In this document: piece after piece, positions 24,923-44,306 of the stretch | Position numbering within the stretch: position 1 is the stretch's first letter | How the letters are laid out: every line of letters begins with the position of its first letter | Source: a virus | Strand: one strand, 5' to 3' | DNA length: 44,306 bases | IMG/VR virus record: IMGVR_UViG_3300036768_001349 | Span: 1-44,306 of that record | Translations under genes and position numbers: made by a program | Notes under the pieces: model-generated | The model's input: the letters and a program-made list of their open reading frames with translations, nothing else | What the model was told of the DNA's origin: nothing | The model's database searches: none

Positions 24923-24961
24923 TGTATATTGCAATTTGGCATTTCGCAAGGATTTATTGCA
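24923..24961 (-). promoter_or_regulatory. Candidate promoter/operator for the XRE-ImmA-PIN pair
   Basis: Reading the minus strand, TTGCGA, 15 nt, then TATACA (24928-24923) resembles a sigma70 promoter. Its -10 nearly touches the start codons, so the mRNA would be almost leaderless. Two ATTGCA copies, 28 bp apart on the plus strand (24928-24933 and 24956-24961), could be autorepressor sites for the XRE domain. The region overlaps the end of the upstream methyltransferase gene. Confidence 0.45.
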
Positions 24962-26183
24962 TATCGGCCATTTGTTCACTGCGGTTGAGCGTGGCCTTAG
25001 CTCCTCTAAGGCATTGCCAGCGTTCAACAATTACATCGCAGTACAGCGGATCGATCTCCATCGCGAAGCACACCCGACCCACGCTTGCCGCTGCAATCAG
25101 GGTCGATCCGGAACCAGCGAATGGCTCGTAGACTAAATCTCCCTTCGCGCTGTTGTTGGCGATCGGCCGACGCATACACTCGACCGGCTTCTGAGTACCG
25201 TGAACGGTCGCCTCATCCTGGTCGCCTACCGCTTTGATCATCCAGAGCGTCGATTGGTCCCGTGCGCCCTGCCAGTTGCCGCCTGCGCCCTCACGCACCG
25301 CATAGAAACAGGGCTCGTGCTGCCAATGGTAATCGCCGCGCCCCAATACGAGCCGAGGCTTTGCCCAGACGATCTGAGCGCGAACCTTGAAACCGCACGC
25401 TTCGAGGCTCTCAGCCACCGTGCGTGATCGAACGCCTGAGTGCCAGACATACGCGATGTCGCCCGGAAACAGCGTCCAGGCGGCGCGCCAATCGGCACGG
25501 TCGTCATTGCTGACCCGGCCCGTGCGCGCTGTTGCCGAAACGCCGGCCGCGTTTCGCCAATTCGGGTCATAGTCGACCCCGTAGGGCGGATCCGTGACCA
25601 TCAGGTTTGGGCGTGCCCCATCGAGAAGCCGCTCGACATGAGTCGCAAGCGTAGCATCGCCGCAAAGCAATCGATGAGGCCCGAGGAGCCAAAGGTCGCC
25701 CGGGCGCGTTATTGGCTCCGCGGGAGGATCAGGGACTTCATCCTCGCCGCTCTTGGCTGGTTGCTCACCAAGGCCGTCGAGCAAGCGATCAAGTTCATCT
25801 TCGCCGAAGCCGAGCAGCTCGAGGTCGATCCCATCCTCCTTCAACCGGCCAAGCTCGGCGGCGAGGACCGCTTCATCCCAGCCCGCATTTAGCGCGATCT
25901 GGTTGTCGGCAAGCCGAAAAGCGCGCGCCTGCGCGTCGGTCAAATGCCTGAGCCGAATGACGGGAATCTCCGCGAGCCCAAGCCGGTTTGCCGCAAGAAT
26001 CCGGCCATGGCCCGCAATCAGAACGCCGCGCTCATCGACCAGGCAGGGCACATTGAAGCCGAATTCGGCGATCGAACCGGCAATCTGGGCCACTTGCTCG
26101 TCTGGATGCGTCCGCGCATTGGCTGCGTAGGGCAAGAGCTGATCGATGGGCCAATGTTCGACCTCAAGACCCTCAGGCCGCAT
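24954..26183 (-). CDS. ParB-domain-fused DNA methyltransferase (DPPY type)
   Basis: This is a 409-aa protein. Residues 1-115 are a ParB/Srx-like domain (LPYAANARTHPDEQVAQIAGSI, GVLIAGHGRILAANRLG, RLADNQIALNAGWDE). The rest is a beta-class amino-methyltransferase: motif IV TDPPYGVDYD at about 197-206 precedes motif I FAGSGST at 355-361. DPPY is commonest in N6-adenine enzymes. Start ATG 26183 overlaps the second methyltransferase by 11 bp; the longer ORF is rejected. No cognate restriction enzyme is visible, so it may protect phage DNA or regulate. Confidence 0.92.
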   Translation of the reverse strand: MRPEGLEVEHWPIDQLLPYAANARTHPDEQVAQIAGSIAEFGFNVPCLVDERGVLIAGHGRILAANRLGLAEIPVIRLRHLTDAQARAFRLADNQIALNAGWDEAVLAAELGRLKEDGIDLELLGFGEDELDRLLDGLGEQPAKSGEDEVPDPPAEPITRPGDLWLLGPHRLLCGDATLATHVERLLDGARPNLMVTDPPYGVDYDPNWRNAAGVSATARTGRVSNDDRADWRAAWTLFPGDIAYVWHSGVRSRTVAESLEACGFKVRAQIVWAKPRLVLGRGDYHWQHEPCFYAVREGAGGNWQGARDQSTLWMIKAVGDQDEATVHGTQKPVECMRRPIANNSAKGDLVYEPFAGSGSTLIAAASVGRVCFAMEIDPLYCDVIVERWQCLRGAKATLNRSEQMADMQ

Positions 26184-27558
26184 CCGCGATCTCCATGCCG
26201 CGGTCGGCGGCGATCTGTTCAAAGGTCCGTCCGCCATCAGCGAGCGTGACGGACTGGTCCGGATAGAGTTTCCGCCAGCGCAAGATGGCCACGTCGACAT
26301 ATTCCGGGGCAAGTTCGATTGCCCTCACGGTCCGGCCGACGCGCTCCCCTGCGATGATGCTCGTGCCGGAACCGGCGAATGGTTCGCAGACCACGTCACG
26401 CTCGTCGCTATAGGCGCGCATCACAAATTCGGGGAGCGCGACCGGAAATACGGCCGGATGCTCGGTCTCGATGCCTCGCGCCTTGTGCCGCGTGATGCGG
26501 ATGACGCTGTCTGGAATGCGGGTTTCCTGCACGCCTTCGCCCGCATGGCTCCATTCCCCGACATGGCCATCCCGGCTGCGCATGCCACCATGCGTGTCGT
26601 TGATGTGACCGGCCCATTTGCAGGGCACGATCTTGTTAGGTTTCCGCGCTTCGCGATTAAAGTGGAACAGAAGCTCGAAGGCCGGAGCCAAGCGGCCGTT
26701 CCAATCGCCCGGTAGGCCGGGGCCTTGGTCCCAGACATAGAGCCCGAACCGGCGCCAGCCCTGGTCCCGCATCCAGTCGAGCCATTCGCGCCAATAGGGC
26801 TGCCACTCGTTGTCACGGTGAATGAGACCGAGATTGACGAGAACCTGCGCTTCTTCGTTGACAGGTAGGTCGGCAAAAACGCCCTGCATCAATGCGTCCC
26901 AATCCCCGACGCCGCCAGTCGTGTAATCGCGCTGGTTTCCATACGGCGGCGAGGTGAAAACAAGCGCGGCCCGCTCGCCGCTCATCACGCGCGAGACTGC
27001 CGCTGCATCGGCGCTGTCGCCGCAAAGCAAACGGTGGCGACCCATCAGCCAGAGATCGCCTGGAAGCGACACCGCCTGGCGCGGCGGCGCGGGCATCTCG
27101 TCGGCGGCGTCAGCCGCCTTTTCGGATTCTGCCTCGTCGTCGAGTGGCGATATTAGTGCGTCGAGCTCGGCATCGGAGAACCCGGTAAGCGCGAGATCAA
27201 AGCCCTCGCCATTCAGGGCGTGCAGCTCGGCCGCGAGCAGTTCCTCATTCCAGCCGGCGTTGAGGGCGAGCTTGTTGTCGGCGATGACGTAGGCGCGCCG
27301 CTGTGCCGGAGTGAGATGGCCGAGGACGACGACTGGCACGGTGTCGAGGCCAAGCCTTCGGGCGGCGAGTAGTCGCCCGTGACCCGCGACGACGATGCCT
27401 TCGCCGTCGACGAGAATCGGATTGGTCCAGCCGAACTCTACTATCGACGCCGCAATCTGCGCGATCTGCTCGTCGTCATGCGTGCGGGGGTTGCGCACGT
27501 ACGGGCTCAGCCGGTCGAGCGGCCAATGCTCGAGCGTGTCGGGCAGCTTGGGCGTCAT
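26173..27558 (-). CDS. ParB-domain-fused DNA methyltransferase (SPPY type)
   Basis: This 461-aa protein has the same layout as its downstream neighbour: a ParB-like N-terminus (LSPYVRNPRTHDDEQIAQIAASI, GIVVAGHGRLLAARRLG, ADNKLALNAGWNE) and a beta-class methyltransferase with FTSPPYGNQRDY at about 201-212 and FAGSGTS near 394. SPPY is typical of N4-cytosine enzymes, though adenine enzymes with it exist. Tandem copies with different motif IV suggest two recognition sites. The gene follows 263 bp of non-coding DNA holding a TGGTAAC repeat array. Confidence 0.92.
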   Translation of the reverse strand: MTPKLPDTLEHWPLDRLSPYVRNPRTHDDEQIAQIAASIVEFGWTNPILVDGEGIVVAGHGRLLAARRLGLDTVPVVVLGHLTPAQRRAYVIADNKLALNAGWNEELLAAELHALNGEGFDLALTGFSDAELDALISPLDDEAESEKAADAADEMPAPPRQAVSLPGDLWLMGRHRLLCGDSADAAAVSRVMSGERAALVFTSPPYGNQRDYTTGGVGDWDALMQGVFADLPVNEEAQVLVNLGLIHRDNEWQPYWREWLDWMRDQGWRRFGLYVWDQGPGLPGDWNGRLAPAFELLFHFNREARKPNKIVPCKWAGHINDTHGGMRSRDGHVGEWSHAGEGVQETRIPDSVIRITRHKARGIETEHPAVFPVALPEFVMRAYSDERDVVCEPFAGSGTSIIAGERVGRTVRAIELAPEYVDVAILRWRKLYPDQSVTLADGGRTFEQIAADRGMEIADAA

Positions 27559-32100: not shown

Positions 32101-34044
32101 TCAACGTGACGAGAGCGGAGTTGTGACAAGCGCCGGAGCGACCTGTGACACCGCCTCCGTGTCCTGCAACTGCGCCGGCTTCACCCGCAGCAAATATGGA
32201 TTAAGCCGATAGCCCTTCCATTCCTCATTCTGGATCACATCGTGATCATCGAGCTGAATGTCACATCCCTTCAAGAACTGCTGCTCAAGCAGTTTTCGGG
32301 TTCGGGAGACGCGCTGGCGCAAGCTTTGCTCGTCGATGCCCAATCGCTTGCTCAGCTCGCGCGCCCCTATGAACCGGAATGAGTCCTTGGCGACGCTGCC
32401 TTCGATATCCTCTTCAAACTCCTTTGCCAGCGCACGAACCAGCTGAAAGCCACTGCCTTTCAGCTCGGGCCCACCGCCGAACAGGACTTTGCGGGCAGCC
32501 TGGTCGATCGCAAACACTATCGGCTTCCGGACGATGGCCCGTGTGTCGCTTGCTGCCTGCACTGACGCAGATTCCTCAGCTTCAATCGGATCCATGTAGT
32601 CGGGCTGTTTGGCGACCGGCGATAGGATCATGGCGAGCAAGGATTTCTCTGGCAAGGAAAGCGCCTGAACCAAGCTTGCGTTGTTCCTCAATTCGCGATC
32701 CACGACTTCGACGACTTGCCGACCATATCGACGGTGAAGATCATGAATCTTTCGGGCATTGTCGTCTGGCGTGCCCGGCAAATATGGAAGAGCGCGAAAC
32801 AACTGGCCGTAGCTTGCGAAAAAGGCCTGTTCCGACACTGTGGCGAGCTTTTGCGCTCTGACCACATAGCACTCGACCAACGTCAAATCGGACCCAGGCT
32901 TGTGCTCGCCTTCGAAAAGATCAATCACGTAGTTGTCCGCTGAGTCGTACTCCCCGAGCCCACCAGCGAGGACGCTGAACCGGCGATCAACGCACTGGGA
33001 GCAAGTGCCACAATGCCGACTTTGCTTTGTAGCCTCTCGGACGCGAGTGCAGCTGATCGTCTCTGAGATCAGACCCGCACACCCGCGATCGGCAAGGACT
33101 TGGACGACGTCAGCCTTGGTCTTCCACACATACGGATTTTCGATGGTGATGGACTCCGACAGGAGCTGAGAGAACAGCCGGCTGCAATCGGCCAAGACCC
33201 GTGGGTGGGTCGTGCGACTCGCTCTCGCGCCGAGGACATGCTCGGCGATGGGAAGGTTGAAGCTGACGATGCCGTTCTCGAAAAATCTCAGGTTTCTCTT
33301 GCCAAACATTCGCGCGACGATGACGCCAAGCGTGGCGAATAGCAGAGAACGCGAGCGCTGCGTGAACTCGCTCGCCTCCTCTTGGCCCTTGTTAATCGTC
33401 ACGGGCACGTAGAAGAGCTGGCCAGATTTCGTTCGCTCCCGCAGCGCAGCCACTAAGTTGTTCTGTTTCGACGCGATCATTGTCGAACTCTGATGGCTGA
33501 CCAACACAACCTGTTTCTGATTGCCAATGAGTTCGTCGACTACGCCGGCGAGAGAGTCGAGCCCTCCAGAGAACAGGATTACCTCTTCCGGCGAAATGGT
33601 CTGGGCGGATGGATCGCTAAATCCCAAGTATGGCTGGAGCCCCTTCGACTTGGACGCCTGAACGAATTCAAAGCCGTATTCATCCTCGGTTAGGAAACCG
33701 AGTGTCTCGACCAGCGCTTCCCGCACATCATTCCTGGTCCAAACATCCGGACATCGAACAGGTATTTTGAAACGGAACTTTCGGCGCCAATCTGCGCCCA
33801 TGTCGGTCATGAGTTCTGAGCCGCGCGACGTGAACTGGTCGGCACAATAGACGTAAGCGGCGATTTCCAGCATGTCCGTCAGGACGTCGGGAATATTATC
33901 GGCCAGCGGTCCGGAGAGATCGCCGAGATGCAAATTCACCTTGCTCGGCGAGCCGGCAGGTGCATTGACGTTCAGGCTTAACGTGTTGGTCCGGGCGTTT
34001 CGGGGAATTTGCAACCCCCCGCACACAACCAGTCGTTCAGGCAT
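32101..34044 (-). CDS. QueC-like PP-loop ATPase with C-terminal HTH (defence-type)
   Basis: Start ATG 34044 (MPERLVVCGGLQIPRNA) has GGAGAG upstream and overlaps the partner gene by 8 bp; the longer ORF is rejected. The product is 647 aa, against about 230 for housekeeping QueC. The PP-loop is VILFSGGLDSLAGV (SGGLDS at 159-164). The QueC zinc set is complete: C332, C345, C348, C351 (ISCTRV, then CGTCSQCVDRR). The N-terminal ~145 residues are extra. The C-terminal ~250 are helical with an HTH-like part near 555-620 (GARELSKRLGIDEQSLRQRVSRTRKLLE). QueC makes preQ0; relatives in Qat and type IV CBASS are defence enzymes. No other queuosine genes are nearby, arguing against tRNA modification. Confidence 0.82.
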   Translation of the reverse strand: MPERLVVCGGLQIPRNARTNTLSLNVNAPAGSPSKVNLHLGDLSGPLADNIPDVLTDMLEIAAYVYCADQFTSRGSELMTDMGADWRRKFRFKIPVRCPDVWTRNDVREALVETLGFLTEDEYGFEFVQASKSKGLQPYLGFSDPSAQTISPEEVILFSGGLDSLAGVVDELIGNQKQVVLVSHQSSTMIASKQNNLVAALRERTKSGQLFYVPVTINKGQEEASEFTQRSRSLLFATLGVIVARMFGKRNLRFFENGIVSFNLPIAEHVLGARASRTTHPRVLADCSRLFSQLLSESITIENPYVWKTKADVVQVLADRGCAGLISETISCTRVREATKQSRHCGTCSQCVDRRFSVLAGGLGEYDSADNYVIDLFEGEHKPGSDLTLVECYVVRAQKLATVSEQAFFASYGQLFRALPYLPGTPDDNARKIHDLHRRYGRQVVEVVDRELRNNASLVQALSLPEKSLLAMILSPVAKQPDYMDPIEAEESASVQAASDTRAIVRKPIVFAIDQAARKVLFGGGPELKGSGFQLVRALAKEFEEDIEGSVAKDSFRFIGARELSKRLGIDEQSLRQRVSRTRKLLEQQFLKGCDIQLDDHDVIQNEEWKGYRLNPYLLRVKPAQLQDTEAVSQVAPALVTTPLSSR

Positions 34045-34816
34045 TTGCTTCTCTCCGGCGACGAAGCTCCTCCCGAATTTTCCCGAAGGCGACATGCGCA
34101 AAGCGGCCCGCTTTGGCCGCATCGATGCCGCCTTCGTATGTGTGCTTTGAGAACCACTCGCCTGCGAACTCCTTGATGATCCGCGATGCCTCCCGACAAT
34201 GGAGATCGAGCGCTCCCTCGAAATCGCGATGTTGCCGAATAGTACGGAAGCGGCCGTTGACGCCAACGTGCTGCGATAGCTCGCGGCTGAGGAAGTAATT
34301 GAGCTGGCGCCGAGAGAGGCGTGCGAAGAAGTCGCGCGCCAGCACAGAGAATTGCTTCACTGTGCCGAGACCACCAAGAGCCTCTCTCGTTTTATCAGCT
34401 GTCGCTCCAAACAGGTCTGGCAGTTCACGCCCGGCTACAGCATTCAGACTTTCGGCGGCCGAAAGCTGTGCCATTTCGCCGAGATCTGTCCGGCCGCCGC
34501 GGCTCGCCACCTGACGATCGACAGCCTCCGTCATGGCGGTAACGACCTCAATCAGCGTGGGGCGATCGCTGACCTGTAGTCCGAGCTTCTTCAGTTCTGT
34601 GGAGAAATCCTCCTGTTTGGCGGCAATGGGAATTTGGGTAAGTAGCCACACCGCATGTTTGACCGCGGGATCGTTACTGGCGTCGATCATTTGACTTTCC
34701 GCGGCGATCGATGTCGCAGCCGCGACGTCCTGGACGTCAGCACCGCCGCTGATCAGGTCGACAACCTGCCGCCACTTCCGTGAACTCGAGAGCCTGCCGA
34801 GGCGCTGATGACCCAT
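34037..34816 (-). CDS. Partner of the QueC-like protein, N-terminal Gly (Qat-like module)
   Basis: This 259-aa protein starts at ATG 34816 (MGHQRLGRLSSSRKW); the longer ORF adds 11 unconvincing residues. It is mainly helical (QVVDLISGGADVQDVAAATSIAAE, HAVWLLTQIPIAAKQEDF, ADKTREALGGLGTVKQFSVLARDFFARLSRRQLNYFLSRELSQHVG, FAHVAFGKIREELRRRREANA). No enzymatic motif was recognised. It is the first gene of a two-gene operon with the QueC-like ATPase. If Met is removed the N-terminus is Gly, the type of end reported to be modified by QueC-like defence enzymes. That role is inferred. Confidence 0.7.
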   Translation of the reverse strand: MGHQRLGRLSSSRKWRQVVDLISGGADVQDVAAATSIAAESQMIDASNDPAVKHAVWLLTQIPIAAKQEDFSTELKKLGLQVSDRPTLIEVVTAMTEAVDRQVASRGGRTDLGEMAQLSAAESLNAVAGRELPDLFGATADKTREALGGLGTVKQFSVLARDFFARLSRRQLNYFLSRELSQHVGVNGRFRTIRQHRDFEGALDLHCREASRIIKEFAGEWFSKHTYEGGIDAAKAGRFAHVAFGKIREELRRRREANA

Positions 34817-35082
34817 GCAAATACTCTTGGCCCAACATGGGTTGAACAAGCGAGATCAGTGACGGCAATAAGGATGACTCGCCTAAGTCAGCACTCGCGT
34901 TACTCGCGTTCCCAGAGGACCCGAAAAACTCCACACGACACCGCCGTGCGGATTAAGGGTCCGCAGGCATGGTTGAAGATGCCAAAGATTGACAACTAAA
35001 GCGAATCTTAGGTGCGAGCGGACGCTTTTTGGGCGTACTTCGCAGCCTTCGGCTCACGTGCGCGCTTGACGGCGTTCTTATT

Positions 35083-35496: not shown

Positions 35497-35874
35497 ATGA
35501 ACCAGGACGACTGCCCTTCTCCCGATCAAGTCGAAAAGGCCCTGATCGACATCGCGATCGAGGGCTGGCGTTTCGCGCGCCTGTTCCAGCGCGTGATCGG
35601 CAAGCTCGATGCCGGGGAAGCGAACCGGTATGTCAACCAGCTGCGCTACTTTCAGAAGAAGCTCGATGAAAGCCTTGAGGCAGCGGGCCTGCGGCTTGTG
35701 AATGTCGAGGGGCAGGCGTTCGATCCGGGGATGGCAGCTGCCGCGCTCAATCTCGGCGACTTCGGCCCCGATGACGCGCTCGAAGTCGAGCAGATGGTCG
35801 AGCCGATCATCGTGGGGCCCGCGGGCCTACGAAAGGAAGGCACGGTGATGTTGCGGAGGGCGGCGCGCCCATGA
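35497..35874 (+). CDS. GrpE-like protein (putative nucleotide exchange factor)
   Basis: This is a 125-aa protein. The first ~60 residues are helical (EKALIDIAIEGWRFARLFQRVIGKLD, QLRYFQKKLDESLEAAG). The rest resembles the GrpE beta-wing: GLRLVNVEGQAFDPGMAAAAL, a D-rich turn, LEVEQMVEPIIV and GTVMLRRA, against the GrpE FDP-x-x-H-A and R-A-x-V-x-V patterns. The His after FDP is missing and the long N-terminal coiled coil is very short. Its stop overlaps the Hsp70 start (ATGA), so it is made with its likely partner. GGGGAGG precedes the ATG. The assignment is by pattern and context. Confidence 0.65.
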   Translation: MNQDDCPSPDQVEKALIDIAIEGWRFARLFQRVIGKLDAGEANRYVNQLRYFQKKLDESLEAAGLRLVNVEGQAFDPGMAAAALNLGDFGPDDALEVEQMVEPIIVGPAGLRKEGTVMLRRAARP

Positions 35875-38360
35875 ATTTCGTCGGCATTGATCTCGGAACC
35901 ACGAACAGCGCCATCTGCTCGTACGACGGTGAGACCGTGCATCTATACAAAAGTCCCGAGCAGCACGATGTCACGCCCTCGGCGATCTTTATCGACAGGC
36001 GCGGCAACCGGTATGTCGGGTCGCGGGCGTACAATAATGCCGCGCGCAATCCCGACAATGCGGCGGTTCTGTTCAAGCGGCTGATGGGTACCAGTACGCC
36101 CATCAAGTTACCCGCCGTCAACTTGACCGTCACGCCCGAGCAATGCTCCGCCGAAATCCTCCGGGTGCTGTTTGGATATCTCCCCGAAGATATTCGGAGC
36201 GATGAGAATACGGGCACGGTTATTACCGTGCCCGCAGCGTTCAATCAGATGCAGAAGGACTCGACGATGGCGGCCGCCGAGGCGGCGAATATCGGGCGGG
36301 TGGCGCTGATGCAGGAGCCGGTCGCGGCGGTGATGAGCGTCATGCGCCGGCGCAATCAGGACGGCGTGTTTGTCATCTACGATCTTGGCGGCGGAACGCT
36401 CGACATTGCCGTCGCAGAAAGCATTGCCGGACGCGTGAATTTACTCGCGCACGGGGGTATCGCCATGTGTGGCGGCCGCGACTTCGACCGCGCGCTCTAC
36501 GATAGCGTAGTGAGGCCGTGGCTGGCCGAGCATTTCAGCCTGCCCGATGATTTGAGCGCGAACGACCAGTTCAAGCCGCTGCACCGGCTGGCGGTTTGGG
36601 CGGCGGAAAAGGCGAAGATCCAGCTCTCGCAGAGCGAGGACGCGGTGATCAGCCTGCCAGAGACGGAACTGAATGTCCGCGACCGCTCCGGCGCGGAAGT
36701 CTATCTAGACATTCCCATCGACCGGGCTGGCTTTGATGCGCTGATCGCGCCGCGGATCGAGGAGTCGATCGCGGCAGCGCGCGAGACTCTGGAGAAGGCC
36801 GGGATGCGCCCGGACGATGTCGAGCGGGTCGTGTTCGTCGGGGGGCCGACGCATTACAAGCCGCTGCGGGACAAGGTTGCTTTTGAACTTGGCATCGCGC
36901 CGTCAACAGATGTCAATCCGATGACCGCAGTCGCGGAAGGCGCGGCGGTGTTTGCCGAGTCGATCGACTGGAGCTCGAAAAGCCGCGGCCGTAAAAGCGC
37001 GAAGGGCGCGCTCAGCCCGAGCGGCGCCCTGCCGCTCTCGTTCCACTATATCGCCCGCACGCCCGATACCCGCGCGAAGCTCGTGGTGAAGGTCGAGGGT
37101 CCGGCGGCGGGCAGCGTGGAATTCCAGGTGGAGTGCCTCGGCACAGGCTGGTCGTCGGGACGCCTTGCGCTCAGGGACGGCGTAACGCTGGACCTGCCAT
37201 TGGCCAAGCCTGGCGAGAATGTCTTCAAGGTCTGGGTGTTCGACGCAAAGGGCGGGCCGGTATGGCTTGGCAACGATAAAATCGTCATTTCGAGAACGGC
37301 GGCCAGCGTCGATGCGATCCCTGCCTCCCACTCCATCGCCATTGAGGCGCGCGAGCGCGTTGGCGGCCGCCTCGTCCCGGTTTACCTCGTGCGGGAAGGC
37401 GATCAGCTGCCCAAGAAGGGCAGCCTGAAGTTCAAGGCGGAAGAATCCCTGAAAGCCGGAAGCCCCGGCGCGCTCCGGTTCAAACTCTGGGAGGGAGCTA
37501 TTGAGGACCCCCTGCATGATAATCTGTTTATCGGGGATTTGCTGATCAGGGGCACCGATTTCGACCAGGGTGTTATCGCCGCCGGCGCGGATTTGCTCTG
37601 CGCTTATGAGGTTCTCGACTCGGGAAACATCATCATTGAGGTATCCGTGCCCTCGATCGGAGGCACGTTTCGGGGCGGCAATTTCTACTCGCGGCAGGAA
37701 GGCCAGACCGATTACACCAACGCGGCGAAGCTGCTCGAAGAGGAATCGCAGCAGGCGGAATCGCGGCTGGATGAGATGGCCGCGAAGATCGACGACGAAC
37801 AGCTGGACCGGGCGCGCGACAAGCTGGATAGCGCGAGAGCGGGGATGGCCAGCGAAAGCGATCCGGAAACCGCCAAGCAGGCAAGAGGCGATTTGCAGGA
37901 GGCCAAGAAGCTGATGGCTGCCGCCCGCAAGCGGCACCTGAAAGTCATGCGGCAACTGGAACTTGACCGGGTGACCGAGTTTTTCGACAACGCCGTCCGG
38001 GAGCATGCGCGCCCGTCGGAGATTTCGACCTTCGAGAACCTCGTGCGGACGGCGCAGCGGAAGATCGATAGTGCGACGAGCGATTTCGAATCCTACCTTG
38101 ATGAATTGCGCGGCAAAGTGTTCGGGATTCTTGTCCGTCAGGACTGGTTTGTCGTCGCGCGGTTCAAGCACCTCGCGGAAAATGCCTATCTGTTTCCCGA
38201 TGCGGAAGAACATGCTGAATGGGTGCGAAACGGCATGGAGGCGCTGCGGGCCGACAATATCGACAAACTGCGCGAGGTCGTGGCGCATCTTGAACAATGC
38301 CGGATCGGGTCAAGCACGGAGGACGATATGCTTGCCGCCGCGAATATCGTGCGGGGCTGA
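35871..38360 (+). CDS. Divergent Hsp70 (DnaK-like) chaperone
   Basis: This 829-aa protein is longer than DnaK (~640). The actin-like ATPase domain is intact: GIDLGTTNS (5-13), VPAAFNQMQ, YDLGGGTLDIAV (DLGGGT at 171-176) and VVFVGGPTHYKPLRDKV (from 320). After ~residue 390 it departs from DnaK: a beta-rich region (SIAIEARERVGGRLVPVYLVREGDQLPKKG) and a long helical/coiled-coil tail from ~615 (LLEEESQQAESRLDEMAAKID, RARDKLDSARAGM). It lacks the usual EEVD-like or DnaK tail. It should be an ATP-driven chaperone, cytoplasmic, for specialised clients. It is the second gene of a five-gene coupled operon. Confidence 0.93.
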   Translation: MNFVGIDLGTTNSAICSYDGETVHLYKSPEQHDVTPSAIFIDRRGNRYVGSRAYNNAARNPDNAAVLFKRLMGTSTPIKLPAVNLTVTPEQCSAEILRVLFGYLPEDIRSDENTGTVITVPAAFNQMQKDSTMAAAEAANIGRVALMQEPVAAVMSVMRRRNQDGVFVIYDLGGGTLDIAVAESIAGRVNLLAHGGIAMCGGRDFDRALYDSVVRPWLAEHFSLPDDLSANDQFKPLHRLAVWAAEKAKIQLSQSEDAVISLPETELNVRDRSGAEVYLDIPIDRAGFDALIAPRIEESIAAARETLEKAGMRPDDVERVVFVGGPTHYKPLRDKVAFELGIAPSTDVNPMTAVAEGAAVFAESIDWSSKSRGRKSAKGALSPSGALPLSFHYIARTPDTRAKLVVKVEGPAAGSVEFQVECLGTGWSSGRLALRDGVTLDLPLAKPGENVFKVWVFDAKGGPVWLGNDKIVISRTAASVDAIPASHSIAIEARERVGGRLVPVYLVREGDQLPKKGSLKFKAEESLKAGSPGALRFKLWEGAIEDPLHDNLFIGDLLIRGTDFDQGVIAAGADLLCAYEVLDSGNIIIEVSVPSIGGTFRGGNFYSRQEGQTDYTNAAKLLEEESQQAESRLDEMAAKIDDEQLDRARDKLDSARAGMASESDPETAKQARGDLQEAKKLMAAARKRHLKVMRQLELDRVTEFFDNAVREHARPSEISTFENLVRTAQRKIDSATSDFESYLDELRGKVFGILVRQDWFVVARFKHLAENAYLFPDAEEHAEWVRNGMEALRADNIDKLREVVAHLEQCRIGSSTEDDMLAAANIVRG

Positions 38361-38363
38361 TCG

Positions 38364-39782
38364 ATGGCGCTTGAGGGGTGGCTGCCGATCGGACACAAGC
38401 TATCGGACGGGTTGATTTCGAAGATCGCCCTGTTCGAGGGGCCGCATTGGCAGATCCTCGAAACGGACGGCCGCGGGCGCGTCCTGATCGTCGATGACGG
38501 CCTCGCGGCCCGGTGGATCGGTACGGGGCTGATCGACGCAGCGCAGCTTGCCCCGCTGGCCTTTGGCAAGAGGACGCTTCGCTTCCTGTCCTCGGGTCCG
38601 GGCCAGGACCTGTGCCCGGTATCCGAAGCGGAATCGTTCGGCACGAAAAGCGACGCTCTGGCTTTTGCTGCCGCTCTCAGCGCCACGCGCGCCATTGACA
38701 AGGATACGCCGCTTCAAGATGCGATTTATGTCGAGAGAATCAGCAGGCTCCTGCCGACCTACAGCATCAGCTCCCGGGCCGACGATGCGCTAGTGCTTGG
38801 GTACTGGCTGACGGGCGGCGCCAATGTGTCGGCGCGATCGTTCCGGCGCCTGCGCCAGATGGCCGGTTTTCTCAGCGTATCCGACCTGAAGGATGTTGTT
38901 GCCGCCGCGCGAATTGAGATAGCCGAGGGCACGGGCGCCATGTCCCGCCCCGCGACGCAAGAAAAATCGGCGGGCAGGGTTCGCGCGAAAGAAGGGGACG
39001 GCATGGCCGGGGCTCGAAGATTCGCGCTGCCCGGCCGCCCGGAGCTGGAATCGTTCTTCAACGAACACGTCATCGACATCATCGAGAACAGCGAGCGGTA
39101 CAAGGCGCTCGGGATCGGGTTCCCCGGCGCTGTCGTGCTTCACGGGCCGCCGGGCTGCGGCAAGACATTTGCGGTAGAGCGCCTGATCGAGTTTCTCGGA
39201 TGGCCGAGCTTTGAGATCGATGCGTCGAGCGTCGCGAGCCCGTACATCCACGAAACCAGCCGGAAGGTTGCCGAAGTCTTCGACAAGGCGATGGAAAGCG
39301 CGCCGTCGGTGCTTGTGATCGACGAGATGGAAGGATTTTTGGCGGAGCGCGCCCTCGATTCGGGCCAATACCGTGTTGAGGAGGTCGGGGAATTCCTGCG
39401 CCGCATCCCCGAGGCAACGAAGAACGAAGTCCTGATCGTCGCGATGACGAACAGGATCGATATGATCGACCCCGCGATTCTGCGCCGGGGGCGGTTTGAT
39501 CATATCATCAAGGTCGGTCACGCCAGCGAAACTGAAATCCGGTCCTTGCTGGACAAGCTGCTTTCGGAGATCCCGAAGGAAAGCGATGTCGATGCCGCCC
39601 CGATGGCAAAGAGGCTGGCTGGCAGGCCCCTTTCAGATGTCGCCTTTGTGGTGCGCGAAGGGGCGCGGCTCTCGGCGCGGGCGGGGCGCGAGAAGCTGGA
39701 TCAAGAAAGCTTGCTCAAGGCGCTGTCGGCGACGGCGGCGCGCGGCGGGGAAGACGATCATCGGCGCATCGGCTTTGTATGA
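38364..39782 (+). CDS. AAA+ ATPase (p97/FtsH-like module) of the Hsp70 operon
   Basis: This is a 472-aa protein. The N-terminal ~225 residues are unfamiliar (MALEGWLPIGHKLSDGLISKIALFEG, YSISSRADDALVLGYWLTGGANVSARSFRRLRQMAGFLS). The C-terminal part is a classical AAA+ module: HGPPGCGKT (K267), VLVIDEMEGF (D320-E321), sensor-1 VAMTNRIDMID and arginine-finger RRGRFD (374-379), followed by a helical lid. Similar modules unfold or remodel proteins. It starts 4 bp after the Hsp70 stop and overlaps the next gene (ATGA). The N-domain, resembling substrate-binding extensions, may link it to the Hsp70. Confidence 0.92.
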   Translation: MALEGWLPIGHKLSDGLISKIALFEGPHWQILETDGRGRVLIVDDGLAARWIGTGLIDAAQLAPLAFGKRTLRFLSSGPGQDLCPVSEAESFGTKSDALAFAAALSATRAIDKDTPLQDAIYVERISRLLPTYSISSRADDALVLGYWLTGGANVSARSFRRLRQMAGFLSVSDLKDVVAAARIEIAEGTGAMSRPATQEKSAGRVRAKEGDGMAGARRFALPGRPELESFFNEHVIDIIENSERYKALGIGFPGAVVLHGPPGCGKTFAVERLIEFLGWPSFEIDASSVASPYIHETSRKVAEVFDKAMESAPSVLVIDEMEGFLAERALDSGQYRVEEVGEFLRRIPEATKNEVLIVAMTNRIDMIDPAILRRGRFDHIIKVGHASETEIRSLLDKLLSEIPKESDVDAAPMAKRLAGRPLSDVAFVVREGARLSARAGREKLDQESLLKALSATAARGGEDDHRRIGFV

Positions 39783-40504
39783 GGCGGGCGGTGGTATCGG
39801 ACGAGGCGCAAGAGGGAAAGCAGCCCGGCAAGGGATTTGCGGGGCTCGACTCCATGCTCTCGGACGTGGACGGGGCGGCCCGCAAGGTCGAAACGGAAAG
39901 CGCCGCCCGCGCCGCGGGGAACGCTGCGCCGTCACAGGAAAGCGCTGCCCAGCCAGGGCCTGCGCAGCGGACGCGGCAGCGCCCCGTGGCGTCGGAGCCG
40001 GGTCACGCGGAACCGGCTGCCCCGCCGCAGCGGGGACCATCGGGGCGGGTCGCACGCGACCCCGGTGCGGGGGTCAGATGGCTTAAGTGGGGCGGCGCCG
40101 CGCTCGTGCTTTACCTGCTCTGGCTCGGGTCGTCCTCGGACAAGCCGTCCTCGCGCCGGTATGACCCGCCGCCAGCCACAACTGGCATCGATTTTTCATC
40201 GCAAGCGGCGCTCACCGAGGAAAAGCCGCCCGTGGGCACCGACCGTGTCTTGACGACAGCGCAGCTCCGGTACTGCGTATCCGAAAAAATTCGCGTTGAG
40301 GCGGCGAACAAGGCGCTCAATGTCTATGTGTCGTCGGACGTGGACCGGTTCAACGCGATGGTCGATGATTACAACAGTCGCTGCGGTTCGTTCCGGTACC
40401 GGCGCGGCGCTCTGGAGAGCACGCAAAGAGACGTAGAGCGCAGCCGCTTCTTACTGGAAGTCGAAGGGCGCGCGCGCCTGTCTCAGACTCTGGGGGGCCG
40501 ATGA
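39779..40504 (+). CDS. Single-pass membrane protein of the Hsp70 operon
   Basis: This is a 241-aa protein. Residues 1-100 are disordered (A, P, Q, R-rich); one TM helix lies at about 101-120 (WLKWGGAALVLYLLWLGSSS). The C-terminal part (LTTAQLRYCVSEKIRVEAANKALN, VDRFNAMVDDYNSRCGSFRYRRGALESTQRDVERSR) is a conserved motif I have seen in other membrane-anchored hypothetical proteins. The two Cys may form a disulfide if this side is periplasmic. It overlaps both neighbours as ATGA. It could anchor the chaperone complex at the membrane. The function is unknown. Confidence 0.72.
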   Translation: MRRAVVSDEAQEGKQPGKGFAGLDSMLSDVDGAARKVETESAARAAGNAAPSQESAAQPGPAQRTRQRPVASEPGHAEPAAPPQRGPSGRVARDPGAGVRWLKWGGAALVLYLLWLGSSSDKPSSRRYDPPPATTGIDFSSQAALTEEKPPVGTDRVLTTAQLRYCVSEKIRVEAANKALNVYVSSDVDRFNAMVDDYNSRCGSFRYRRGALESTQRDVERSRFLLEVEGRARLSQTLGGR

Positions 40505-42576
40505 GCACAACGGGAACGCGCGCCGAGCTTGCCGGCCGGCTTTCGCGTTTGCAGCCGCAGGAGCCGGGGGAACCAGGGCAAGCCGTGTGCTTCCGGTGCG
40601 GCGGCGATAAGGCCGGTCCGCTCGCCCCCTGCGGCCAGTGCGGCGCGATCCCGCGCAGCGACGATGATCTCTCGCTTTCGCTGATCCTGTGCCGGCAATT
40701 ATCGCCGGCGGCGCAACTCGCGCAGTTCGCGCAGCAGATCAGGTCCGGGCATGGCTTGCAGATTTCGGACAGCCTGCGCGCAAAGGTGCGCGAAGCCCTC
40801 AATCATCCGCAGCTGGCGGCGATGCTAAGAGCCGGCCGCCGGATGGGTCAGCTGGCGGATACAGGGGTTGCGGACGGCAATGGCGCGGCTGCCGGGGAGC
40901 CCGCCCCTGCCGCTGCAGCCCCGCCCCCGCCCGGAAAAGAGACGTCATTGCATCGCAACGCGTTCTGGCTTCTCGGCGCGACCGCCCGTGACAACCGGCG
41001 CCGCCTTGTGGAGCTTGCCGAAGAAAAGGCGTTCGAGCACGAGGCCGAGGCGTGCCAGAAGGCGCGGTCCGATCTCACGACCCCGCGCAGGCGGCTCGGC
41101 GCCGAAGTGGCGTGGCTGCCCGGCGTATCGCCGGGCAGAGCCGCGCAGCTCATGCAGCTCCTGTCACGCGATCCCCTCTCCATCCGCAAGGAGGCAGGGC
41201 TGCCGCCGCTGGCGCAGGCTAATCTGATGACGGCGTCCCTTGAGGCGGCTGAATCGCAGGAGTGTACGGAAGGGATCGCCGATTTTATTATCGAGGTTGC
41301 GCGTCTCGTCGACGACGTCGCGGCCGAGGACGTGATGCGCGATGTCAACGAGGACCGCGCCATCGCCGGCTTCCCGGAGATCAGCAGCGTCGATGAGGTG
41401 GAAGCCGCGCTCGCCGAGAGGACGCGCTATTACCGCGATGCGGTCAAGGGCGCGCTGGAGCGGCTGCCGACGCTCGCACTTGTCGATGTTATGACGCAGG
41501 TCCTTGAGGAGACGACGTGCGGCGGCGAAGAGCACGCGCCGGCCCTGATCGACTTGCTTGTGGACAGCTATGAAATCGAAACGCAGGGCTTTCTCGAAAA
41601 GGAGGCCGAGAGCGCGCGAAAGCTGATCGAGGCCACACGCGATGCCGCGCCGCAGGGCGAAGACGCGCTGGCGCCGCTGATCGATCAGATCGAAGCCGTT
41701 GCGCGCAATTGGGACAAGGTCGCGCAGCCGGTCCAGCTCGGCTTCAAGGCGCGCGGCACCGGGCATGCGCCAAGCCTTGAACTCGCGCATGCGATCCGGG
41801 GTTTGGGTGTCGATCTTTGCAACGAGCATGGCATGACAGCGCCCGCGCAGCGCCTGACGGCCCTGCTGCAGGAGCTGTTTGCGGAATTGCCAGAATTCAT
41901 CGAACAGACCGAAGAGGATGCGGAGGCGCTGGGCGACCTCCTGCGCAGAAAGGAAGAGCTGGAGGCCGACAGGGAGAAATGGGAGCGCGAGATTACGTAC
42001 AGCGCCGAGGTTGGAGTGTTGTCCAAGACCAGGCTGAGTATTTCGCCGCAGGGCGTCTCGTGGGGCAAGATCGCGTTCCCGCTGGAGGCTATTACGCGCG
42101 TGAGATGGGGTGGGATTCGGCACTCGGTCAATGGAATACCGACAGGCACCACCTACACCATTGCGTTCGGCGACGACCGGGCTGAGGCGATTGTTGAGCT
42201 CAGGCGCGAGGAAGTGTTCGGCAACTTCGTCAGCAAGCTTGCGATGGCAGTCGGCCCGCGCCTTCTGACCGAGCTTTTGCGCACGCTGATGGCTGGCAAG
42301 GAAGTACGATTTGCGGAGGCGATTATCCGCGATGACGGGCCTACGCTGCCGAAACACAAATTTTGGGGCGGCAACGAGAATGTGAGGTGCACCTGGAACG
42401 ACGTCCAGGTGTGGAGCGCTGACGGGGCGTTTTATATCGGCGCGAAGCACGACAAGAAGGTCTATGCGGGGCTTTCTTACATATGCTGCGCGAATGCGCA
42501 TCTGCTGGAACGCGCTATCCGTGTCGCCTTCGAAAAACCCGGCATGCGGGTGCTCAGTGATTTGCTCGGCGGCTGA
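40501..42576 (+). CDS. Zinc-ribbon / J-like / PH-like protein of the Hsp70 operon
   Basis: This is a 691-aa protein. A zinc ribbon is near the N-terminus (C30-FRC, C44-GQC). A proline/alanine linker leads to a region resembling a J-domain at about 151-208 (RNAFWLLGATARDNRRRLVELAEEKAFE, ARSDLTTPRRRLGAEVAWLPG), but the HPD tripeptide is absent. A long helical middle follows, then a beta-rich, PH-like part from ~500 (YSAEVGVLSKTRLSISPQGVSWGKIAFPLEAITRVRWGG). It is the last coupled gene. It probably guides the Hsp70 to targets, perhaps without standard ATPase stimulation. Domain calls are by pattern. Confidence 0.65.
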   Translation: MSTTGTRAELAGRLSRLQPQEPGEPGQAVCFRCGGDKAGPLAPCGQCGAIPRSDDDLSLSLILCRQLSPAAQLAQFAQQIRSGHGLQISDSLRAKVREALNHPQLAAMLRAGRRMGQLADTGVADGNGAAAGEPAPAAAAPPPPGKETSLHRNAFWLLGATARDNRRRLVELAEEKAFEHEAEACQKARSDLTTPRRRLGAEVAWLPGVSPGRAAQLMQLLSRDPLSIRKEAGLPPLAQANLMTASLEAAESQECTEGIADFIIEVARLVDDVAAEDVMRDVNEDRAIAGFPEISSVDEVEAALAERTRYYRDAVKGALERLPTLALVDVMTQVLEETTCGGEEHAPALIDLLVDSYEIETQGFLEKEAESARKLIEATRDAAPQGEDALAPLIDQIEAVARNWDKVAQPVQLGFKARGTGHAPSLELAHAIRGLGVDLCNEHGMTAPAQRLTALLQELFAELPEFIEQTEEDAEALGDLLRRKEELEADREKWEREITYSAEVGVLSKTRLSISPQGVSWGKIAFPLEAITRVRWGGIRHSVNGIPTGTTYTIAFGDDRAEAIVELRREEVFGNFVSKLAMAVGPRLLTELLRTLMAGKEVRFAEAIIRDDGPTLPKHKFWGGNENVRCTWNDVQVWSADGAFYIGAKHDKKVYAGLSYICCANAHLLERAIRVAFEKPGMRVLSDLLGG

Positions 42577-42598: not shown

Positions 42599-44306
42599 AT
42601 GAGCCTGGATCCTCTGCATTTGATTTCCGCCCATCCGTGGCAGCGCGCCGCGTTCACAACCTACGCGCTGAGCCTCTCTTTCTTTGAAGCGATCGTGCTC
42701 GACGCCCTCGTTCGCGCTGAAGCGCATGAAGCGTTGATCCTCGCCGATGTGGACGGTGTTCGCGCGGCTTTGGGCGAACAGGGCGCGCGCCGCGTGGGCC
42801 GGGATTATGAGGTCGAGCCTGTCGCCGTCGAAGCCGGCGGGGTGTTTCATCCCAAGATTACGGTCCTTACAGCTCCGGACGAGTGCCATTTGCTGGTCGG
42901 CTCTGGCAATCTGACCTTCGGCGGCTGGGGCGGAAACTTCGAGGTGATCGAACATCTGCATCCAAGCTTCGCGGCGGACGCCATAGAGGATGCGGCTGGA
43001 TTCTTCGATCTGCTCTCCGCCACCGGCCACATACGCCATGCAGCCGGTGAGCACTGTGCCTCGATCGCCAGCGATCTGCGCGCCGCGATACGCGGCACCT
43101 CCAGGAATGGCGGCATACGTATTTTCCACAGCCTGGATGGCGCCATCTCCGAGAAACTGGTCGAGGCGGCAGACGATTTGGGTGGGGCCACCCGTCTCGT
43201 CGTCGCGGCTCCATTTTGGGATGAGGGATCCGCGCTCGACCGGCTTTGCGCTGGGCTGAAACTCGACGAAGCCTTTCTCCAGGTTCACCCCGGTGGCACC
43301 GTGGAGGGGAACATCGGATCGAACTGGCCTGCCCGCGCGCGAAGCCGCGTCCGGCCCGTGACGCTCGATCATATGAATGAGCCCGACCCCCGGCGGCTGC
43401 ATGCGAAGCTCCTTGAAATCCTGTGCAAGCGCGGCCGCATCTTGCTCTCCGGAAGCGCCAACATGACCGCGGCTGCGTTAGGCGCGCGGCGCAACGTCGA
43501 AGCTTGCGTAGCGCGCATCCAGCGGGAGCCTGTGTCGGGCTGGCGCTTCCGCGCGACGGAAGCGCCCATCCTCTGGTCTCCGTCGGAGAGTGAGTTGCAC
43601 GACGAGGAGAGCCTTCTGGGAGTGCTGCGCGCCGTGCTCGAAGGGGACCAGATCGCGGGCCAGGTGCTCTCGCCCAGCATGACCGGCGCGGCCTCTTTCT
43701 CGCAACTCACTACGGAAGGACCGGAGCCTTTGGGTGAGGCCGACATCGCCGCAGATGGCTCGTTCAGCATCATCACTCCGGGTCTTGAGATGCAATCCTG
43801 GAGAGGCGGCCGCCTGGTCTTGCGCGTCGAGAATGCCAAAGGCCAGCGCGCGGAGGGCTTCATCTCGGTGGCAGCTTTCGCCGAGATCACGCGGCGAGCT
43901 GGCGCTATGGGAACGCGGCTGCTAGCTCTGCTGGCAGGGACGGAGACTCCGGCCGACGTTGCGGCCATTATGAGTTGGTTTCACGACGATCCCACGCGGC
44001 TGCCCTCGGCGCGGGCGAGCATGGGCGGCGGCGGTGATGGCCGCGGCCCAGGTGAGACCGGCCAGACCATCGCCGTCTCCACGTTAAACAGCGCCCATGC
44101 TCTTCACCACACGGAGCGAACAGGATCCGGAGGGTCCGGCGCCGCAAGCTGGTCGCGGTTCATGCAATGCGTGTTCGCGGCGTTCCGCGAGAAGCGCGGC
44201 CCGCTTGGCCATGCTGGAGTCGGGCACAAGGGAGACGACGACGATGACGTCGAAACGCAGGATCCAAGGGAAGCCGCGCGCACACAGCGGTTCGTGCAAA
44301 GCTCAC
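42599..44306 (+). CDS. Phospholipase-D-like protein, 3' truncated by window
   Basis: The frame is open from ATG 42599 to the window edge (569 codons, no stop). Two PLD-type half motifs are visible: FHPKITVL with GSGNLTFGG (H84, K86, G101) and LHAKLLEIL with GSANMTAAAL (H268, K270, G285). The Asp of the canonical HxK(x)4D motif is absent from both, as in many defence-associated PLD-like nucleases. The region after ~300 is beta-rich and then disordered with a G/D-rich stretch. It lies 22 bp after the Hsp70 operon, in the same direction, with only a weak ribosome site. Such genes often precede helicases; the next gene is outside the window. Confidence 0.8.
   Translation, partial: MSLDPLHLISAHPWQRAAFTTYALSLSFFEAIVLDALVRAEAHEALILADVDGVRAALGEQGARRVGRDYEVEPVAVEAGGVFHPKITVLTAPDECHLLVGSGNLTFGGWGGNFEVIEHLHPSFAADAIEDAAGFFDLLSATGHIRHAAGEHCASIASDLRAAIRGTSRNGGIRIFHSLDGAISEKLVEAADDLGGATRLVVAAPFWDEGSALDRLCAGLKLDEAFLQVHPGGTVEGNIGSNWPARARSRVRPVTLDHMNEPDPRRLHAKLLEILCKRGRILLSGSANMTAAALGARRNVEACVARIQREPVSGWRFRATEAPILWSPSESELHDEESLLGVLRAVLEGDQIAGQVLSPSMTGAASFSQLTTEGPEPLGEADIAADGSFSIITPGLEMQSWRGGRLVLRVENAKGQRAEGFISVAAFAEITRRAGAMGTRLLALLAGTETPADVAAIMSWFHDDPTRLPSARASMGGGGDGRGPGETGQTIAVSTLNSAHALHHTERTGSGGSGAASWSRFMQCVFAAFREKRGPLGHAGVGHKGDDDDDVETQDPREAARTQRFVQSS

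Follow-up and report, generated by a model that had tools for sequence, protein, structure and literature searches.

Introduction

The stretch of DNA analysed here (the window, 44,306 nucleotides comprising the whole of a viral record) raises the question of what purpose is served by a set of chaperone-like and membrane-protein genes found on it. The left 32 kb of the window belongs to a prophage, in which genes for head, tail and terminase are present, and at 35497-42576 the window carries five tightly packed open reading frames, all on the plus strand, which may lie inside the prophage or in an adjoining host island. An earlier note, made from the sequence alone, had read these genes (g1 to g5) as a chaperone machine separate from the housekeeping chaperones of the cell.

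In the present analysis the five genes were followed through bacterial genomes, plasmids and viral contigs, and their products were compared with known protein families and structures. We propose that together they make up a single envelope-anchored chaperone/unfoldase system that moves horizontally and most likely serves anti-phage/anti-MGE defence, a reading that we favour with modest confidence.

Results

The GrpE-like protein, the Hsp70 and the AAA+ ATPase

All five reading frames of the block were found where the earlier note had placed them; adjacent frames overlap by 4 bases in three cases and are 3 bases apart in one. A chance gene cluster was ruled out by finding the operon again at dozens of unrelated loci. 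Scanning of the region 5′ of g1 revealed no promoter. The product of g1 (35497..35874, 125 amino acids), which is the first gene at other loci too, was identified by Pfam and hhalign as a homologue of the GrpE nucleotide exchange factor. Its match to Pfam GrpE is weak (E 0.006, under the cut-off), and the earlier assignment as GrpE-like is backed by the profile-to-profile comparison with housekeeping GrpE (hhalign P 4e-5, probability 70%, alignment around the FDP motif). These comparisons support homology to GrpE, with nucleotide exchange on Hsp70 as the putative activity.

The g2 gene (35871..38360, 829 amino acids) encodes an Hsp70, as judged from Pfam, the ATPase motifs and the similarity to DnaK in both hhalign and Foldseek. 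The Pfam Hsp70 match (E 4e-55) spans residues 4-363 only; the ATPase domain (NBD, residues 1-363) matches DnaK, and its nucleotide motifs are intact and invariant across 41 relatives. The C-terminal half had been described as novel, which holds for it only in part: residues ~485-600 follow the pattern of the DnaK SBD-beta with an in-register hhalign match (P 0.01), and residues 615-828 appear as a helical tail. Foldseek aligned the g2 model to full-length DnaK over more than 700 columns; since the model is weak (pLDDT 70), a partly DnaK-like C-terminal half, with an SBD-beta-like stretch and a helical tail, is put forward as a moderate claim. The unusual part of g2 would be the insert of ~110 beta-rich residues that the same low-confidence model places between NBD and SBD.

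The third gene, g3 (38364..39782, 472 amino acids), encodes a classical AAA+ ATPase of the p97/PAN-like type (Pfam AAA E 1e-29), in agreement with its earlier description as an AAA+ remodeler; its nearest relatives are VCP/Cdc48, according to PDB profile matches, and PAN. Walker A (residues 261-268), Walker B (residues 317-321), sensor 1, the arginine finger and the aromatic residue of the pore loop SPYIHETS (residues 292-299) are conserved in 42 of 42 sequences, the aromatic being Y or F in every one of the 42.

No family match was found for g4 and g5 in Pfam, NCBIfam or PADLOC. PADLOC likewise returned no match for g1 and g2, and g3 was matched by a generic AAA domain only, so that for the distinctive genes of the operon the search bears out the view that no named defence system is represented.

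The membrane protein g4 and its conserved tail motif

The membrane-linked component expected from the earlier reading is g4 (39779..40504, 241 amino acids), a single-pass membrane protein with a conserved two-cysteine periplasmic region. Its predicted transmembrane helix was read from the sequence at residues ~101-117 (40079..40129); in the hydropathy scan the homologues score as transmembrane and the window copy falls slightly below the threshold used. The periplasmic ends vary between relatives, often comprising PG_binding_1 and, besides it, different types of repeats. The window protein ends after the two-cysteine region and is devoid of the PG_binding_1 end of many relatives.

The cytosolic tail of g4 is variable except for one near-invariant motif (KGFAGLSSLVSDVD), which occurs in other operon proteins as well. 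In the window it reads GFAGLDSMLSDVD (residues 19-31, 39833..39871), and KGF[A/S]GLSSLVSDVD or a close variant is present in the disordered N-terminal tail of every complete g4 of the full operons. Among 46 non-redundant tails the motif is near-invariant, with G, F and G invariant, and its columns have an entropy of 0-1.7 bits vs ~3 bits in the subsequent linker, which is rich in Pro, Gln and Ser. A g4-type motif also heads g8, one of the extra proteins encoded in some lineages, and the 250-amino-acid c26 proteins. It behaves like a putative docking or client motif. A strict tie between the motif and the AAA+ protein, first suggested by its absence from g4 of rhizobial relatives that lack the AAA gene, was weakened by two AAA-less loci that retain the GF[A/S]GL start.

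The g5 protein and its exchangeable C-terminus

The last gene, g5 (40501..42576, 691 amino acids), is kept with the operon and encodes a protein with a zinc ribbon, a helical core and a C-terminal PH-like module (AF2 pLDDT 90). Its start is uncertain, several relatives beginning near residue 27. The zinc-ribbon-like CxxC...CxxC (residues 28-50, 40582..40650), seen in both sequence and model, is missing in some lineages. Of the zinc/J-like/PH-like description given in the earlier note the zinc ribbon stands and the J-domain is not supported: the helical segment at residues 149-203 (40945..41109; NxFxLLGxxxRDxRR...ARxDLTxPRxRL) resembles a J-domain by eye only, the HPD motif is absent from it in the window and in relatives, comparison with J-domain profiles gave no significant match (hhalign probability ~1%, P 0.05), and Pfam DnaJ does not occur among the matches listed for 50 g5 members. 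The PH-like character of the two C-terminal units (residues 500-678, 41998..42534) fits the order of strands and helices in the confident AF2 model but gains no significant match in the whole-chain fold search; PDB searches with g5 by sequence and by fold gave nothing significant, and the two units do not match each other by profile.

The relatives divide g5 into a conserved core and an exchangeable C-terminal module of ~210 amino acids, which is PH-like at 52 loci, a transmembrane hairpin at ~9-10 and of rarer types besides. Modules have been swapped between near-identical operons in both operon lineages: L052 and L038 have Hsp70s 99% identical and g5 cores 94% identical with unrelated g5 C-termini, and in L023 and L045 the corresponding values are 97% and 85%, again with unrelated C-termini. 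The modules would seem to offer alternative routes to the membrane. The fusion of g4 and g5 in Aminobacter supports the view that the two proteins work together.

Distribution and variants of the operon

The search for the block in other genomes, carried out with the g5 profile, turned up 54 loci among the species genomes of GTDB, besides two further viral contigs, and the operon was also found on plasmids and in one E. coli genome. Where the contig was long enough, gene order was judged with HMMs of the five genes; it is g1-g2-g3-g4-g5, or g1-g2-g3-g5-g4 in a second lineage, at most of the 54 GTDB loci, with few exceptions to the full operon, such as split Hsp70 or AAA frames. The loci come from several phyla and include Gamma-, Beta- and Alphaproteobacteria, Desulfopila and Geomonas, together with MAGs that bear the labels Nitrospira, Acidobacteria, Puniceicoccales and Thermoflexus. 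Some lineages carry extra genes: g6 (214 amino acids), g7 and g9 (signal-peptide-like), g8 (transmembrane), g10 (RDD) and the small g11.

At about seven loci a small HTH gene, excisionase/AlpA-like by eye, lies directly 5′ of g1 (L010 3817-4176, L013 4081-4338, L014 1212-1571, L015 3924-4145, L024 4528-4755, L044 3867-4139 and L045 3565-3783) and is perhaps a regulator of the operon. At L028 (8617-16826, plus strand) a single operon contains two g5 genes (554 and 943 amino acids) and three consecutive g4-type proteins, i.e. a duplication of the variable parts of the operon.

Rhizobial relatives retain g5/g4, the GrpE-like protein and Hsp70, with no AAA gene beside them. Triads of g4-g5-g6 with a partly kept GF[A/S]GL occur in two gammaproteobacterial-class genomes (L130 8788-12465 and L131 9023-11984, both on the minus strand), in which, the genomes being possibly incomplete, only housekeeping-type Hsp70 and AAA were found. 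Because of the AAA-less rhizobial relatives and these triads, the system is taken to be modular; g4-g5 may be its sensing/anchoring half and Hsp70-GrpE-AAA its motor half. The occurrence of g4-g5-g6 apart from the special Hsp70 and AAA implies another or older role for part of the set: do the triads represent an older or a different use of the anchor module?

Accessory status and mobility

The claimed separateness from the housekeeping chaperones was borne out by genomic context, and a housekeeping chaperone locus was ruled out. Each of the 30 host genomes tested encodes one separate housekeeping GrpE above the family cut-off, and the operon itself is patchy: with the seeds included, it is present in 6 of 301 genomes of one family sample and in 2 of 385 and 7 of 369 genomes of two class samples, and it occurs in 1 of 5,426 complete E. 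coli genomes. The operon Hsp70s of Acidovorax soli and Pseudomonas paracarnis are 97% identical and their DnaK proteins 72%; for Desulfopila and a gammaproteobacterial endosymbiont the values are 88% and 67%, and two Pseudomonas show the reverse, 77% for the operon Hsp70 vs 89% for DnaK. Such identities clearly speak for horizontal transfer of the operon. On Shewanella and Aeromonas plasmids the tns genes directly 5′ of it belong to a Tn7-like element, and the chromosomal copy of E. coli HeN100 (L119 19630-26413) is part of a tRNA-Phe island that also contains integrases and the RADAR gene rdrB. It was thus found in accessory and mobile surroundings near defence genes, not in core contexts only.

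Defence genes around the operon

The neighbourhood sample consisted of 235 proteins of at least 200 amino acids encoded within 10 kb of the operons, compared with PADLOC. Matches, with E values down to 0, were obtained to subunits of type I RM, to Hachiman, BREX, Lamassu, Shango, Hhe, Wadjet JetD and Mokosh, and to Gabija-type proteins; part of the helicase/ATPase matches is generic. As a control from the core genome, not from islands, 111 proteins encoded near the housekeeping grpE genes of these genomes were compared in the same way; they matched 20 PADLOC families, none of them RM, BREX, Hachiman, Lamassu or Gabija. The neighbours of the operon are richer in defence proteins than those of housekeeping grpE, and with a control drawn from the core genome only, part of this enrichment may reflect nothing but island residence.

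Closer association was seen at single loci. In L034 and L058 hamA of Hachiman begins 3 and 7 bases after g4, respectively, and is followed by hamB on the same strand (L034 13925-17906; L058 14190-18123), a spacing that suggests co-transcription with the chaperone operon. A split type I restriction endonuclease ends just 5′ of g1 in L058, Polaromonas carries zorA on one side of the operon and BREX genes on the other, and in Sinorhizobium and Aminobacter relatives an ATPase or ATP-dependent endonuclease is paired nearby with a UvrD-type helicase. A short hamA remnant was noticed in L051/L052.

Within the window the QueC-like and PLD-like genes of the earlier note do adjoin the operon but do not belong to the conserved unit; they are taken as neighbours because other operon loci carry no homologues of them. 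At 32101-34849 (minus strand) a 721-amino-acid QatC/QueC-like protein with a sigma-70 region-4-like C-terminal stretch (PADLOC QatC E 5e-57; NCBIfam QatC E 9e-63, under its cut-off) is encoded, preceded by a 270-amino-acid protein without any family; together they are possibly a separate QueC-type defence module lacking QatA, QatB and QatD. The PLD-like gene (42599-44305, plus strand) starts 22 bases after g5, runs off the end of the window and is related to the ZacB/DrmC models (PADLOC E 5e-15 and 2e-6). In the prophage part two overlapping adjacent reading frames (24954-27558, minus strand) both match the ParB-like/DNA-methyltransferase families phrog_498 and phrog_620, as if from a tandem duplication.

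Discussion

The gene content of the operon, its conservation and its membrane link support a coherent chaperone machine, as had been supposed. An Hsp70, an exchange factor, a threading-type AAA+ ring, an anchored g4 and a scaffold point to a machine that remodels proteins on the inner side of the envelope. In the mechanism that we envisage g4 would cross the inner membrane. Its periplasmic part, which often binds peptidoglycan and has variable end modules, would anchor it or act as a monitor at the envelope, and its disordered tail in the cytosol would present the conserved docking motif. The g5 protein, as a scaffold/co-chaperone, would sit on the cytosolic side of the membrane, kept there by whichever exchangeable module it carries, PH-like or transmembrane. 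The trigger might be, for example, the attachment of a virion, the entry of DNA or a foreign protein complex that becomes exposed. The AAA+ ring, with its retained substrate-threading pore aromatic, and Hsp70, for which the GrpE-like protein would provide recycling, would then dismantle the bound complex or remodel g4 to relay a signal. We infer trigger, client and outcome, whether direct disassembly or signalling, from the layout of the proteins.

Defence appears to be the most likely purpose because of where the operon is found, a role that we infer from genomic context. The operon encodes no nuclease, toxin or other known effector, which counts against such a reading, and so do the genomes with g4-g5-g6 and no special AAA or Hsp70.

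Next in rank as a purpose, though unlikely, comes envelope maintenance: the operon would be a mobile envelope-stress/quality-control cassette that refolds, disaggregates or extracts damaged membrane-bound proteins, the islands being merely its mobile vehicles. The chaperone/unfoldase parts and the peptidoglycan-binding and secreted accessory proteins fit this function equally well, as does the want of an obvious effector enzyme. The general company of defence genes, with Hachiman and type I RM genes adjoining the operon, argues the other way, as do the exchangeable modules and the variability of the periplasmic ends, features seen more typically in conflict systems, and the lack of recurring protease or heat-shock genes in the operon; we therefore consider this cassette the less probable explanation.

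It is more doubtful that Hsp70 and AAA+ power the export or assembly of g4 and the downstream-encoded g7-g10. Extended operons do encode signal-peptide-like and membrane proteins, and the N-terminal motif that several operon proteins share might serve to tag clients, but no secretion channel is recognisable and the extra genes are absent at most loci, including the window, where the five-gene core stays. A prophage-borne helper for virion morphogenesis, or the phage's own lysogenic-conversion gene set, to which the 32 kb of prophage in the window and the two other viral contigs with the operon might point, is very improbable because of the operon's distribution, with no match in 50,697 phage records and with plasmid, Tn7-like and tRNA-island copies that have no annotated phage structural genes beside them.

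Should defence be the right reading, a whole chaperone/unfoldase machine that brings its own exchange factor would stand at the centre of the system, and immunity would come from the remodelling of proteins at the envelope; an uncharacterised cargo carried by Tn7-like transposons, plasmids and genomic islands would find an explanation too. We further put forward, tentatively and with less confidence than defence itself, that the operon represents a new class of immune system, in which a dedicated Hsp70/GrpE/AAA+ machine, docked by a conserved short peptide to g4 with its variable periplasmic modules and placed at the membrane by the exchangeable g5 modules, would disassemble complexes at the expense of ATP with no cutting of nucleic acids. 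The operon is a small, testable unit with a native copy in the E. coli HeN100 chromosome, and the natural swaps of g5 mark the part that bears on localisation or specificity.

Comparison with known systems

With the searchable literature being incomplete, no paper describing the five-gene operon was found, and the main texts of a survey of Tn7-like cargo (PMC8649781) and of the DefensePredictor paper (PMC13092281) make no mention of chaperones. Since, in addition, PADLOC-DB, NCBIfam and Pfam hold no models of g4 and g5, the operon is regarded, with that reservation about the literature, as categorically new as a candidate system.

Hsp70s have been described in other predicted conflict systems. 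In the GAP1-N2 systems, which are centred on a GTPase and found mainly in actinobacteria and firmicutes, Hsp70 and GrpE are encoded in ~14% of the neighbourhoods, accompanied by envelope-linked parts and a protein fused to DnaJ or TPR (Kaur et al. 2020, PMC7159879); no GTPase (TRAFAC) family recurs among the proteins of the operon studied here. The CoCoNuT type IV restriction systems, for which defence is predicted, contain an Hsp70-like NBD/SBD protein and lie within superoperons with RM and BREX, but their Hsp70 (CnuD) is described as a degenerate ATPase tied to the McrB GTPase and McrC (PMC11090510). In contrast, the ATPase motifs of g2 are intact, no McrB/McrC occurs in the operon at any locus, and the operon encodes no HEPN protein.

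The combination of Hsp70, exchange factor and AAA+ remodeler, with an NBD that matches DnaK, resembles DnaK/GrpE/DnaJ and the DnaK-ClpB pair. It differs from them in that its AAA+ protein is p97/PAN-like with one AAA domain and is not ClpB, in having no HPD-containing J-protein, in the ~110-residue insert of its Hsp70, in its membrane/periplasm-anchored partner and in its accessory, mobile character. The AAA domain of g3 matches IetA of IetAS (PADLOC E 7e-24), but this match is confined to the AAA domain and weaker than that to PAN, and the operon has no subtilisin-like IetS partner. Zorya combines a membrane-anchored, peptidoglycan-linked component (ZorAB) with cytosolic partners. No homologue of ZorA/B/C/D/E is encoded inside the operon, yet the two are alike in their envelope-anchored layout, and in Polaromonas zorA is a neighbour of the operon.
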